A DNA stretch of 64,000 bases from Ornithinibacillus caprae (GTDB taxonomy: Bacteria; Bacillota; Bacilli; Bacillales; Amphibacillaceae), in contig NZ_WOCA01000007.1 of assembly GCF_009728145.1 (NCBI RefSeq), positions 1-64,000 on the forward strand. Reading direction: 5' to 3'. Below the pieces are notes generated by a model. That model worked only from the letters and a program-made list of their open reading frames with translations, was not told the DNA's origin and made no database searches. The position numbers and the translations under genes were made by a program. This document shows, one piece after another, positions 25,655 to 30,600 of the stretch (positions are counted from its first letter, which is position 1; the number at the start of each line of letters is the position of its first letter).

Positions 25655-27688
25655 CTAGACTGCTTTTTGCTGTGAACTTCCTTGCTGCATTTGATACATT
25701 TGATAATACGTACCTTTTTCTGCAATCAGTTTTTCATGATTTCCTTGTTCTATTATTTTACCATGTTCTAGAACAAAAATCGTATCTGCTTGCTGGATCG
25801 TTGATAATCTGTGGGCAATAACCAATGTTGTCCTTCCTTGCTTTAATACTTCTAATGCATGCTGAATAATACTTTCTGTTTCTGTATCAATATTCGCTGT
25901 AGCTTCGTCTAAAATTAGAATCGCTGGATCAAATGCTAATGCACGAGCAAATGAAATTAATTGACGTTCCCCTAACGAGAAAGTACTTCCTCCTTCTGTT
26001 ACCTTTTCATCATACTTTTTAGGCAATCTTTCGATAAAACGATCTGCACCAACCGTTTTCAGCGCCTTTATTGCAGTTTCTCTAGAAATACTAGGATCAT
26101 TCATTGTTACGTTTGTTACGATTGTTCCAGAAAATAAAAATGGATCTTGTAACACGATTCCCATATGACTTCTAACCTGTTGTCTCGACCATTCTTCTGT
26201 ATCAAAACCATCAATGGTTATTTTCCCTTTTTGTGGGTCATAGAAACGAAATAGTAAATTCATGATCGAGCTTTTTCCAGAACCCGTATGACCAACAAAT
26301 GCTGCTGTCTCCCCTGCCTTCACCTCTAATGAAAGATCCTTCAGTACATATTCATCTTCCTTATAAGCAAATGAAACATGGTCAAATTTAATATTCCCTT
26401 GATATCTATTAACAGGTTTATTCTCTACAACCTCTCCATCAAGGTCCATCAGCTCAAATACTCTTCCTCCTGCAACTCTAGCCTGTTCAATTAATGGAAG
26501 TTGATTGACAATATCATTAACAGGCTCAAAAAGTCTTGTTAAATAATCAACAAACGCATAAAGCATACCAATAGAAATAATACTTCCAGGATCTAATGAA
26601 AACGAACCAAAATACCAGATGAACCCAACAAAAGCAAGGTTACGAAATACAGTAACTAAATTAAAAGAAGTTAACGCACTTAATTTTACAAGCTTTCGTT
26701 GGTAGGTAAAATGTCGTTCATTTAGTACTTCAAAATCTTCTTTCGTTTTCTTCTCTTTTCGAAATGCTTGAATAATTGGCATCCCTTGGATCGCTTCATT
26801 GATATTTCCATTAATTTCACTGATGGTAGAGCGAATTACTTTGTTATATTTTGACCCGAAATATTTATAAACTCTCATCCAAACCAGGATTAATGGAATA
26901 AGCAATAAACACCATGCAGCAAGCTTGGCATCTAATATAAATAAAGCAACAAAAATACCTGTCATATAAATCATGCTTGTTACTACAATAGAAAGCACTC
27001 GTTCATATAAATCTCGAATTGCTTCCGTATCGTTTGTAATACGTGCGACTATTTTTCCTGCCGGTTGATCGACATAATAATCAATTGGTATTCGTTGTGT
27101 ATGCGCAAATATATCATTACGCATTTTTTTAACAATTTGATTTGATGCTTTTTGTAAAATAAACGTCTGATAAAATTGGAAAAAACCAGCTATTACGAGT
27201 AATACCATATATAGACCTAGTAACAAAAGAATTGGTCTTTGCTCCGGTTTAAAGAAACCATAAACCTCAGAGAGTGATATTCGTTCTGCTTCAAATGTTA
27301 CATTACCATCAGCAGTTTCTATCGTAAGTAAACCATCATCCACCGTTCGTTTTCCATTTAATGGAACATCATCTTGAATAAAATAATAGTCCCTTCCAAT
27401 TTGTAATAAAGTGTTAACATCTAGTGATTGATCATTGTCCGTTAAACGATCCTCACGTTTATAATAGGTATCCCTAAAAGATACTGTATTTTTATCATGG
27501 ATCTCCTCAACTTCATGCCAATTTCCTTCAATACCAAGAATATGGTCATCGATAACTGTTTTTGCAATTAACGGACCTGCTAGTTCAAGTGTGGTCGCAA
27601 TGATTAAACACATGATTCCTAGCAAAATTCCACGTTTAAATTGCCATGCATAATGTAAAAGCCGTCTTTCTGTTGATCTCTTCTTCAT
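25655..27688 (-). CDS. bmrD: Heterodimeric multidrug ABC exporter subunit BmrD-like
   Basis: The 677-aa half-transporter has six spans followed by an ATPase domain with Walker A GHTGSGKSS, signature FSLGERQLISFARA, Walker B ILILDEATANID and switch His in IAHRLS. A ~100-residue insertion in the first outside loop (residues ~50-150) is characteristic of the BmrD/YheH subunit (673 aa in B. subtilis). The signature has L-G-E instead of SGGQ, as expected for the degenerate site of heterodimers. It overlaps the bmrC stop codon by one base. The pair would export drugs. Confidence 0.9.
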   Translation of the reverse strand: MKKRSTERRLLHYAWQFKRGILLGIMCLIIATTLELAGPLIAKTVIDDHILGIEGNWHEVEEIHDKNTVSFRDTYYKREDRLTDNDQSLDVNTLLQIGRDYYFIQDDVPLNGKRTVDDGLLTIETADGNVTFEAERISLSEVYGFFKPEQRPILLLLGLYMVLLVIAGFFQFYQTFILQKASNQIVKKMRNDIFAHTQRIPIDYYVDQPAGKIVARITNDTEAIRDLYERVLSIVVTSMIYMTGIFVALFILDAKLAAWCLLLIPLILVWMRVYKYFGSKYNKVIRSTISEINGNINEAIQGMPIIQAFRKEKKTKEDFEVLNERHFTYQRKLVKLSALTSFNLVTVFRNLAFVGFIWYFGSFSLDPGSIISIGMLYAFVDYLTRLFEPVNDIVNQLPLIEQARVAGGRVFELMDLDGEVVENKPVNRYQGNIKFDHVSFAYKEDEYVLKDLSLEVKAGETAAFVGHTGSGKSSIMNLLFRFYDPQKGKITIDGFDTEEWSRQQVRSHMGIVLQDPFLFSGTIVTNVTMNDPSISRETAIKALKTVGADRFIERLPKKYDEKVTEGGSTFSLGERQLISFARALAFDPAILILDEATANIDTETESIIQHALEVLKQGRTTLVIAHRLSTIQQADTIFVLEHGKIIEQGNHEKLIAEKGTYYQMYQMQQGSSQQKAV

Positions 27689-29439
27689 TAGGAGATCACC
27701 TCCTCGTCATTTCCCATTTGTTGCTGTTCGTATTGTTCTTTATACCACCCACCTATTTTCATTAGCTGATCATGTGTACCCTCTTCCACGATTTTTCCAT
27801 TTTCTAATACGATAATATGGTCCGCATGCGTAACAGCTGACATTCGATGAGCGGCAATAAATGTTGTTTTGTTTTTACGTTCTTGTCGCAAATGCTCAAT
27901 GATTTTTGCCTCTGTTTTCCCATCAACAGCAGACATCGAATCATCAAGAATCAATACCTCTGGTTTTTTAATAAAAGCCCTAGCCAATGCAACACGTTGT
28001 TTTTGTCCTCCAGATAAAGTAACCCCACTTTCTCCTACCTGGGTATCTAATCCATTTGGCAGTTGTTTGATATCGTCTAAGAAATGAGCTAATTCCATTA
28101 CCCGGTATATTTCTTGATCTGTTGCATCTTCTTTACCAAATTGAATATTTTCTCGAATCGTCTTTGAAAACATCATCTGATCCTGTGGAACATATCCAAT
28201 CCAATTACGTATCTGTTCTAAACTAATATCTTCAATTTTTTGACCAGAGTATTTAATTTTGCCGTTAATTCCTGGATACTGACGCAGCATTAATTTAAAT
28301 AAAGTTGTTTTACCTGCACCTGTTTTTCCGACAATACCAATTGTCTGCCCTTTCTTCACTTGTAGAGAAATATTGCTTAATTGATTTGTCTCTGTTTCTG
28401 GGTATGAAAATGATAAATCATCAAAATCAATCGTATCGACCGAAGCTACTGTTTTTGGATTTTCCGGGTTTTGTACATCCGCTACATAATTCATTGTCTC
28501 ATTTACACGGTCTAAAGAAGCATTCCCTCGCTGTAATACATTAATTAATTCCCCAACAGCAAACATTGGCCAAATTAACATCCCAAGATAAACATTAAAG
28601 GTAACTAAATCTCCTAATGTTATTTGGTTTTCAAAAACCAATAATGCACCATACCCTAATCCAATGGTATAAGAGAGCCCCACAAGTATTTTCATCGTAG
28701 GCTCAAATAAAGCATCTATTTTAGCAACAGCAATATTTTTATCGTATACGTCCTCTGTCATCTCTTTAAATCTTTTGGCATCTTGTTTTTCTTGTACGAA
28801 TGCACGAATAACGCGTACACCTCGGATAGATTCCAATACTTCATTGTTCATATTTCCAAAAGCTGCTTGTGCCTTTGTAAAGCGTGCGTGTATCGCAGCA
28901 CCATATTTATTCATTACTATTGCCATAATTGGTAGTGGAATTAATGCAGCTAAGGTCAACTTCCAGCTAATCGTAAATCCCATCACCGCGATTAACATAA
29001 ACATAAACGTTGTAGAATCTACTAATGTCAATATTCCAAATCCGGCTGTCTGAGCAATCGCCTTTAGATCATTTGTACTTCTTGCCATTAAGTCACCTGT
29101 TTTATTTCTTCCATAGAACGTCGGTGTCATTTTTAAGAAATGGTCCATTAAACGGCTGCGAATCCATCGTTCTAAGATAACTGCTCCACCAAATAATGTG
29201 TAATCCCATAAAAATGAAATAGCGTAATGAACAACGATTAGGCACAGATACCCAACTATTAATGTGACTAATAATTGCATTGTTAAGGTTTCAAACTGAA
29301 TGTGATCGATTGCATACCCCACTAGCTTAGGAGGAATCAATCCGATAGCACTAGCAATAATCAATGAAATAATTGCGAACGTATATCTCTTCCAATAATG
29401 TTTAAAAAACCAATCTAACTTTTTAAATACTTCAAACAC
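27688..29439 (-). CDS. bmrC: Heterodimeric multidrug ABC exporter subunit BmrC-like
   Basis: The ~583-aa half-transporter has six spans, then an ATPase domain with Walker A GKTGAGKTT, signature LSGGQKQRVALARA, and Walker B VLILDDSMSAVD. The Asp in place of catalytic Glu after the Walker B Asp is the mark of the non-catalytic site, matching BmrC of B. subtilis (585 aa). I chose the GTG at 29439 because AAGGTG lies 6 bases before it; the frame is open for three more codons. The 300-bp leader contains a short ORF and two terminators, indicating induced expression by attenuation. Confidence 0.9.
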   Translation of the reverse strand: MFEVFKKLDWFFKHYWKRYTFAIISLIIASAIGLIPPKLVGYAIDHIQFETLTMQLLVTLIVGYLCLIVVHYAISFLWDYTLFGGAVILERWIRSRLMDHFLKMTPTFYGRNKTGDLMARSTNDLKAIAQTAGFGILTLVDSTTFMFMLIAVMGFTISWKLTLAALIPLPIMAIVMNKYGAAIHARFTKAQAAFGNMNNEVLESIRGVRVIRAFVQEKQDAKRFKEMTEDVYDKNIAVAKIDALFEPTMKILVGLSYTIGLGYGALLVFENQITLGDLVTFNVYLGMLIWPMFAVGELINVLQRGNASLDRVNETMNYVADVQNPENPKTVASVDTIDFDDLSFSYPETETNQLSNISLQVKKGQTIGIVGKTGAGKTTLFKLMLRQYPGINGKIKYSGQKIEDISLEQIRNWIGYVPQDQMMFSKTIRENIQFGKEDATDQEIYRVMELAHFLDDIKQLPNGLDTQVGESGVTLSGGQKQRVALARAFIKKPEVLILDDSMSAVDGKTEAKIIEHLRQERKNKTTFIAAHRMSAVTHADHIIVLENGKIVEEGTHDQLMKIGGWYKEQYEQQQMGNDEEVIS

Positions 29440-29530
29440 AAAAATCACCTTCTTCTCTCTTTCTAAGTTTTTCTACGTAAAATAATATTTAAATCTTACA
29501 TTTCCCGTAATCCCCTTTTGTTTTTTGCAT

Positions 29531-29563
29531 AAAAAAATGCATACGTCGTCCTGCGACGTATGC
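29531..29563 (-). terminator. Second leader terminator before bmrC
   Basis: On the minus strand GCATACGTCG (29554-29563) pairs perfectly with CGACGTATGC (29539-29548) around 5 bases, followed by ATTTTTTT. It lies about 90 bp before the bmrC start. Confidence 0.9.
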
Positions 29564-29614
29564 AAGGTTAGAGTTATAGAGAGAACACAGCTATACCTAC
29601 TTCACTTATATACA

Positions 29615-29642
29615 CAAAAAGGCCACAGAACGATGTGACCTT
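29615..29642 (-). terminator. Attenuator terminator in the bmrCD leader
   Basis: On the minus strand AAGGTCACA (29634-29642) pairs with TGTGGCCTT (29619-29627), nine pairs with one G-U, followed by TTTTT. The first arm can instead pair exactly with TGTGACCTT inside the leader ORF (29686-29694), which would prevent the terminator. Confidence 0.88.
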
Positions 29643-29669
29643 TAAAAGACAATAAATTATGTATAAAAA

Positions 29670-29738
29670 TTATACAGTTTCTCCGAAGGTCACAATACAT
29701 ATTAAGTTCATTTTTTCTTGCAATACTCTATTTTCCAT
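29670..29738 (-). CDS. BmrB-like attenuation leader peptide, 22 aa
   Basis: The 22-codon ORF encodes MENRVLQEKMNLICIVTFGE followed by TV, starting at ATG (29736-29738) after AAAAGGAGG with 8-base spacing. It follows an excellent sigma-A promoter by about 35 bp. Its codons for CIVTF overlap the antiterminator arm (29686-29694). In B. subtilis the short bmrB ORF has the same place upstream of bmrCD and controls it through ribosome-mediated attenuation; this peptide is shorter than BmrB (54 aa). By analogy, a ribosome that completes translation would cover the arm and allow termination, while one stalled early by an antibiotic would free it. Confidence 0.85.
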   Translation of the reverse strand: MENRVLQEKMNLICIVTFGETV

Positions 29739-29774
29739 TGTTGTAACCTCCTTTTCATTTTTTGATTCCCAACA

Positions 29775-29803
29775 ATTATATTATTTAGAATATTTTTAGT
29801 CAA
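29775..29803 (-). promoter_or_regulatory. Sigma-A promoter of the bmrCD leader
   Basis: TTGACT (29798-29803) and TATAAT (29775-29780) are 17 bp apart, nearly consensus. A perfect 11-bp inverted repeat (29807-29817 with 29821-29831) lies just upstream. Confidence 0.85.
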
Positions 29804-29892: not shown

Positions 29893-30600
29893 AATTGATG
29901 TAGAATTGCGCGGTTACTTTGTTGAGCATTTGCTGTAACACCCTGATTTTAACAAGCCCTATAATATCGCTCCGTCAGAATACTTCGCTTTCACTTCCAG
30001 TACAAGGGCGACATCTGTTCAAGCTCCTTCCAGTTACTTTCACAGTGTCTACTTTGCCGTGGGCATGGTCTCATCCAGGGATCATCTTTAATCCGCTTCT
30101 TTGCCTTTGCGCCGAGGAACTATGCTACGAAGCGATACTAGAGGACGCAGGAGCAACACTGCAAGGTCTTCAGGCATGTGCTGTTCCCACAGGACAAAGG
30201 GTTTCGGTGGGCCAAGTAATCGCAGGCCCAAGGAATACTTCGAAAGTATTAAATCCCACGAAGAAAATTGATTTTTATTTTCGAGGGTTCGACTGCCCTC
30301 AGATTCAATTACCAGACATAAAAGGACCTACTTTATTAAAAGAAGATTTTCACTATAATTAAAAACTGCAAAAATAGCGGAGAAAATACACGAAGACTCC
30401 TTGAAAAAGAAAAGCACTTTTTCTGCGTGCGATGAAACGCTGACGTAGCTTTCCTTGTCCTGCGGGAGCACAGGCATCGGTGAGATCCCGCAGTGCGACA
30501 GCACGAGGAAGCTCACCAGCCGCCCGCGGAAAGCGAAGTGTATTTTCGGAGCGGCATATACGCATTAATCACCATTTTAAGTTACTTCAAATTTTACATT
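29893..30600 (+). repeat. Dispersed intergenic element, copy B, with inverted ends
   Basis: The longest copy is bounded by imperfect inverted arms: CGCTCCG...AATAC-ACTTCGCTTTC (29968-29992) and GAAAGCGAAGT-G-TATTTTCGGAGCG (30529-30553). Inside are a GC-rich core shared with copies A and C (including ATGTGCTGTTCCC at 30176-30188) and a second hairpin-forming module (about 30395-30530). Open frames inside lack ribosome sites and are not believed. It fills the gap between the bmrCD leader and the ger operon. Confidence 0.75.

Follow-up and report, generated by a model that had tools for sequence, protein, structure and literature searches.

How can an exporter operon be held tightly off without its induced level being lowered as well? 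A formed terminator leaks some polymerase, and an ordinary second terminator would lower the induced level too. The bmrCD leader of Ornithinibacillus caprae raises this question because it carries two terminators in tandem. The window analyzed here is a stretch of 64,000 nucleotides (NCBI RefSeq assembly GCF_009728145.1, contig NZ_WOCA01000007.1, positions 1 to 64,000), and the leader and the two genes that follow it are read from its minus strand.

25655-27688, minus strand: bmrD, best PDB sequence match B. subtilis YheH (E 2.8e-232)
27688-29448, minus strand: bmrC, first GTG at 29448, best PDB sequence match B. subtilis YheI (E 4.8e-232)

The matches to YheI (BmrC) and YheH (BmrD) span nearly the whole length of both ORFs, making these genes orthologues of B. 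subtilis bmrC and bmrD, in keeping with the name bmrCD in the initial annotation. The closest named BmrC is that of Oceanobacillus limi (89% identity), followed by Paucisalibacillus and Ornithinibacillus, and the N-termini of relatives suggest that bmrC may start at the GTG at 29439 rather than at 29448.

The leader upstream of bmrC comprises the following elements, with the segments that can pair with one another numbered as arms 0 to 4 and a helix named by its two arms.

29775-29803, minus strand: promoter, TTGACT-17-TATAAT, matching 11 of 12 consensus positions; box region kept in a 40-row alignment of near relatives
29741-29751, minus strand: arm 0, the Shine-Dalgarno (SD) region of uORF1; candidate anti-antiterminator, able to form 11 bp with arm 1, two of them G-U
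29670-29738, minus strand: uORF1, 22 codons, MENRVLQEKMNLICIVTFGETV, after GGAGG
29685-29695, minus strand: arm 1, within uORF1, with arm 0 or arm 2 as partner
29634-29643, minus strand: arm 2, the 5' arm of T1
29618-29627, minus strand: arm 3, the 3' arm of T1, then TTTTTGTG, partly inside the stem
29643-29618, minus strand: terminator T1, 10 bp
29622-29633, minus strand: T1 loop and top of arm 3 (side 3 of helix 3:4), 12 bp complementary to the T2 apex
29546-29557, minus strand: arm 4, the T2 apex, partner 29633-29622
29538-29564, minus strand: terminator T2, 11 perfect pairs, loop CAGGA, then T7 (29537-29531)

The near-consensus promoter and the 22-codon leader ORF are thus where they had first been described. 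Likewise, the nine bases at 29694-29686 (TGTGACCTT) match the T1 3' arm (TGTGGCCTT) but for one A/G difference and are exactly complementary to 29642-29634 in the first arm of T1. A second perfect terminator is present as reported (29564-29538), with 11 perfect pairs rather than the 10 bp originally given. The SD region (29751-29741), able to pair with arm 1 (29695-29685), had been overlooked. T1 lies outside the leader ORF, with 26 bases from the uORF1 stop (29670) to the T1 start (29643). Two further features were seen by eye: an imperfect inverted repeat around the -10 box (29768-29803 in the window; examples from near relatives are TTCCTAA..TTAGGAA of L022 and TTCTTAA..TTGAGAA of L002), which is a possible operator, and a GTACATA-like string in the uORF1-T1 interval of near relatives.

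Consensus scans by themselves gave no evidence for this arrangement, with 6 promoter-like sites against a shuffle mean of 8.3 and 3 terminator-like sites against 1.8; the case is therefore built on the statistics of pairing and the comparison with relatives. Within the window leader, the pairing of uORF1 with arm 2 was equalled by 7 of 2000 dinucleotide shuffles, that of the SD region with uORF1 by 3 of 2000, and that of the leader with the T2 apex by 7 of 2000. No Rfam family was found over the leader at the gathering threshold. The best match was sub-threshold, to RsaOG, an S. aureus sRNA family (29613-29754, full model length; 20.1 bits against a gathering score of 50, E 0.84); this is probably a chance match, and assignment of the leader to a known RNA family was ruled out.

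Relatives were drawn from 146 genomes of what we take to be the family Amphibacillaceae, 105 of which had a close BmrC (at least 59% identity); 104 upstream regions were used, G114 being left out at a contig edge. Eighty named loci, from which 46 duplicates and L183 (again a contig-edge case) were removed, brought the total to 137 bmrC upstream regions, some near-identical to one another. An SD-led small ORF of 16-45 residues, the range of the finder, preceded bmrC in 126 of the 137, a few of these not being the leader ORF, and 11 regions had no uORF1 candidate; the family uORF1s are about 19-34 residues long. Under strict rules T1 was counted in 93 regions, T2 in 123 and both in 92, and 45 regions were without the full set of uORF1, strict T1 and T2, including 31 with T2 and no strict T1. 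The second terminator had been put forward as a departure from B. subtilis bmrB; it is one, but with a hairpin terminator at that place in 123 of 137 regions it is not special to one genome.

Several regions depart from the common plan. The search for T1 and T2 came back empty in L004, yet the T2 model matches 617 bases upstream of bmrC, so that other DNA has been inserted between; GC-rich repeat-like DNA, alike by eye, occurs in the gap between leader and bmrC of L004 and at about 29950-30200 of the window. Regions L068-L079, several of them named Terribacillus, retain T2 with no strict T1, and the SD of L068 (GGAGGAGCCC) is strongly complementary to a stretch within uORF1; this group likely has a different switch geometry. 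A small cysteine-containing HTH-like ORF stands immediately upstream of the leader in L009, L050 and L059, of which the L059 copy gave no more than a MarR_2 match below the cutoff and that of L009 none. The record of L130 is titled Roseburia sp. 1XD42-34 and its bmrC is 77% identical; both bmrC and leader match L047, a member of the Bacilli family studied here, and the record name is probably wrong. Within uORF1, the Ile codon of an N-(F/L/Y/S)-I motif just 5' of arm 1 is ATA in 43 of 46 uORF1s, ATA accounting for 39 of 190 at other uORF1 Ile codons, a bias that may reflect rare-codon pacing or an RNA constraint.

T2 itself is well conserved. Across 55 of the 107 T2 pieces, which formed the alignment, 98.6% of cells in the helix were paired and two-sided changes were found in 8 of 9 pairs, with 0 of 500 shuffles as high. 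In every one of the 11 genus genomes the T2 model found its best genome-wide match in the bmrC leader, at modest E values (0.004-0.04) and with 4 of the 11 genomes among the training rows, and the view of T2 as a house terminator or generic repeat was rejected on this ground. A strict T2 consensus pattern found no copy in the genome of the window, but this pattern misses the window's own T2 too.

What, then, does T2 do behind T1? The reading in the initial annotation was that T1 is a bmrB-like attenuator and T2 an independent, constitutive back-up that would lower basal and induced expression alike, with no visible antiterminator. The folding energy of T2 in the window (-16.5 kcal/mol) agrees with this, as does its place in the minimum free energy (MFE) structure of 75 of 90 leaders once it is complete, even with arm 1 free. 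An antiterminator for T2 can, however, be proposed from the complementarity of 29633-29622 with 29557-29546: the T1 loop and 3' arm are a conserved, co-varying candidate. Folded in the window, helix 0:1 has -12.7, helix 1:2 -16.2 and T1 (helix 2:3) -12.0 kcal/mol, and the stretch from arm 3 to the T2 apex has -22.8 kcal/mol, intervening structure included.

Pairing was examined across the 92 complete leaders. Duplex energies of helices 0:1, 1:2 and 3:4 in the leaders' own combinations were each matched by 0 of 2000 permutations among leaders. Two other pairings of T2 fared differently: direct pairing of uORF1 with the T2 apex gave no sign of co-evolution (1330 of 2000 permuted), and arm 3 with the T2 5' arm was worse than in permuted leaders (1997 of 2000), and both were discarded. 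Helix 3:4 was also examined in a fixed register of nine positions over 90 leaders, L163 and L180 having been dropped for want of an anchor, and 84.6% of its cells were paired versus 31-45% when the register was slid by 1-3. On 66 distinct rows, 84.5% of cells were paired versus 79.8% in shuffles (0 of 500), and two-sided changes numbered 48 cells versus 17.0 (0 of 500); two further co-variation measures on these rows were weaker (8 of 500 and 45 of 500). T1-loop bases, which are unpaired in T1, join helix 3:4 and change together with the T2 arm (columns 4-6 with 24-26). The best partner of the apex between the uORF1 start and T2 was arm 3 in 73 of 90 leaders, uORF1 in 12 and elsewhere in 5; against whole-leader dinucleotide shuffles, its mean z was -1.44 and all 40 shuffles were beaten in 21 of 90. 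An independent T2 would lack a reason for its apex to track changes in the T1 loop, and this register-specific, conserved and co-varying complementarity to the T1 loop and arm 3 leaves that account unlikely.

Could the complementarity instead be a by-product, with T2 copied from T1, or similar sequence held by other needs, and no pairing in the cell? The GUCAC of T2 does resemble the GGUCAC of arm 2, and permuted leaders are already paired at 79.5% in the 3:4 register against 84.6% for the leaders' own, because both segments are conserved. Since relatedness inflates pairing tests, we also simulated along a tree of the 90 BmrC sequences with composition and rate kept, and in 5 of 400 runs this null attained the 740 of 900 paired cells that were observed. 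At three positions, independent-pairs tests pointed in one direction (1.4:0.0, 1.7:0.0 and 3.3:0.1), none reaching 0.05, so no single position is significant by this measure. Helix 3:4 is in the MFE structure of 88 of 90 leaders, against 213 of 450 with arm 3 shuffled and 354 of 450 with a foreign arm 3, and such counts are a poor discriminator. The complementarity nevertheless extends into the T1 loop and the T2 3' arm, beyond what copying of arm 2 would account for, and two-sided changes are found there, so that we regard a by-product as decidedly improbable.

MFE structures computed at successive 3' ends of the 90 leaders show how the alternatives succeed one another. Before arm 3 is made, with arm 1 free, helix 1:2 was formed in 90 of 90. 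At the T1 end, leaders with arm 1 free divided between helix 1:2 (32) and T1 (58), and T1 was formed in 89 when arm 1 was masked. Eight bases past the T2 apex, free arm 1 gave helix 1:2 in 56, T1 in 34, helix 3:4 in 53 and T2 in 9, and masked arm 1 gave T1 in 85, helix 3:4 in 4 and T2 in 58. Once T2 was complete, leaders with arm 1 free had T1 in 58, T2 in 75 and helix 3:4 in 14. The window leader held helices 1:2 and 3:4 with arm 1 free until eight bases past the apex, and T1 and T2 with arm 1 masked; when complete, it went back to T1 and T2 even with arm 1 free. Because complete leaders revert in this way, the ON state must be a kinetic choice, as it generally is in attenuators. Naked RNA of the window ending at T1 folded with helix 1:2 and the SD on arm 3, not with helix 0:1 and T1, so helix 0:1 must act kinetically too; the complete leader folded as 0:1, T1 and T2. 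The idea of a bmrB-like, ribosome-controlled attenuator at T1, with helices 1:2 and 2:3 mutually exclusive, is supported both by the comparison of leaders and by these foldings.

It is our favored and somewhat probable reading that the leader is a ribosome-controlled relay attenuator, in which a stalled ribosome disarms T1 and, through helix 3:4, T2. Anatomy, conservation, co-variation and folding energies support it; that transcription terminates, that the ribosome stalls, which compounds induce and that the T2 apex is captured kinetically are inferred. Segments 0, 1, 2, 3 and 4 would act as a chain of alternately complementary arms. With no ribosome on uORF1, helix 0:1 could form, so that T1 would form and transcription would stop; a ribosome at the uORF1 stop would cover arm 1, with the same outcome at T1. 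In both OFF states arm 3 would be tied up in T1, and polymerases that had leaked through would meet an intact T2. A ribosome stalled early in uORF1 would cover arm 0 and leave arm 1 free; helix 1:2 would then form before arm 3 is made, no T1 would arise, and the T1 loop and arm 3, now available, would seize the emerging T2 apex (helix 3:4), disarming T2 and allowing bmrCD to be transcribed. From the positions of the start, arm 1 and the stop and from usual ribosome footprints, a ribosome in roughly the first nine codons should keep arm 1 accessible, and a ribosome at the stop should cover it. A single ribosome position would thus set both terminators, giving a tight OFF state and an ON state that is not lowered.

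A real helix 3:4 serving some other role (polymerase pausing, mRNA protection or a truncated leader acting as a small RNA) is very improbable: terminated leaders should accumulate and the RsaOG match covers 29613-29754, but that match is at chance level, and since helix 3:4 excludes both T1 and T2 its simplest reading is antitermination.

If the relay is real, making T2 conditional on the state of T1 would fix the leak at a cost of fewer than 90 extra bases. It would also provide a rule for other leaders with tandem terminators, namely that the first hairpin is the place to seek an antiterminator for the second, and would add to the published account of a widespread drug-inducible exporter, which has a single terminator.

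Beyond the family, a class survey of 151 genomes was made and 49 bmrC upstream regions were read, 43 of them with a detectable terminator; many had one or two terminators along with a small ORF. Taking a best apex partner in the loop or 3' arm of the preceding terminator as the criterion, relay geometry was seen by eye in 7 of the 43 (L186, L190, L197, L214, L215, L219 and L221), and the margin over the shuffled-apex mean exceeded 2 kcal/mol only in L186, L219 and L221 (0.4 in L197, 0.7 in L214). The same geometry may therefore occur with other sequences in other families, most clearly in these three, but with 7 of 43 hinting at it and 3 clear, a class-wide relay was rejected and the relay is claimed for the family alone. 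L195 and L199 belong to one genus, which we infer to be Bacillus. By eye, the BmrC N-terminus of L195 is close to that of B. subtilis, and in both loci an additional small ORF precedes bmrC; L199 carries a tandem pair of terminators.

Of 186 regions, 64 had a second SD-led small ORF between T2 and bmrC (54 of the 137 family regions and 10 of the 49 outside; within L052-L103, L143-L184 and L187-L220); the window leader lacks it. Its stop lies 8-70 nt before bmrC, its last residue is Gly or Asp, commonly in -(E/D)(S/G/D)G, and the stop codon is TAG in 61 of 64 versus 23 of 93 for uORF1. The codons preceding the stop vary synonymously, so the peptide end and the stop codon seem to be selected. 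This second uORF looks like a further translated control element; two such ORFs are present in L052, L062, L066, L067 and L085.

We consider evenly balanced the broader proposal of a family-wide bmrCD relay, in which the descending arm and loop of T1 would serve as the T2 antiterminator and leakage would be suppressed multiplicatively with induction uncompromised, with the same geometry perhaps in other families and a stop-coupled second uORF added in many relatives.

How much of this is known from other systems? B. subtilis bmrCD is induced by 50S inhibitors (Reilman 2014, PMC4191407), and the resemblance to its bmrB leader, as far as the available text of that report describes it, is close: the genes are orthologous, a small leader ORF with a ribosome-binding site holds the antiterminator arm, and terminator, antiterminator and anti-antiterminator form an overlapping chain, mutually exclusive here by complementarity and energies. 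The B. subtilis terminator, however, lies inside a 53-residue ORF, whereas here T1 stands beyond an ORF of 22 codons. The shorter peptide had been remarked on at the outset, and the difference from the 53 amino acids of BmrB (PMC4191407) holds, as it does for the uORF1s listed for the family. T2 and helix 3:4 likewise set the present leader apart from the single terminator of B. subtilis, for whose bmrB leader the available text (PMC4191407) mentions neither a second terminator nor a second uORF; among the open-licence papers listed, titles and the beginnings of abstracts report no second terminator or relay in a bmrC leader. The mef(E)/mel attenuator, in the portion of PMC4335068 available, shares a leader peptide, a stalled ribosome and a chain of alternative repeats that frees a terminator, but has one terminator, its last stem-loop having been judged a non-terminator. 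The rimP-leader of several Gammaproteobacteria also carries tandem terminators, with a potential antiterminator clear for the upstream one, although the gene is unrelated and the accessible part of that source names no leader peptide (PMC2965389). By its description in the text available, ermK of B. licheniformis has a leader-peptide transcription attenuator in which two intrinsic terminators lie next to each other ahead of a different gene (PMC4335068), an arrangement paralleled by T1 and T2 together in 92 of our 137 regions. Leader-peptide attenuators with tandem terminators are thus already known from ermK, and the proposed 3:4 link between T1 and T2 appears to be the new part.
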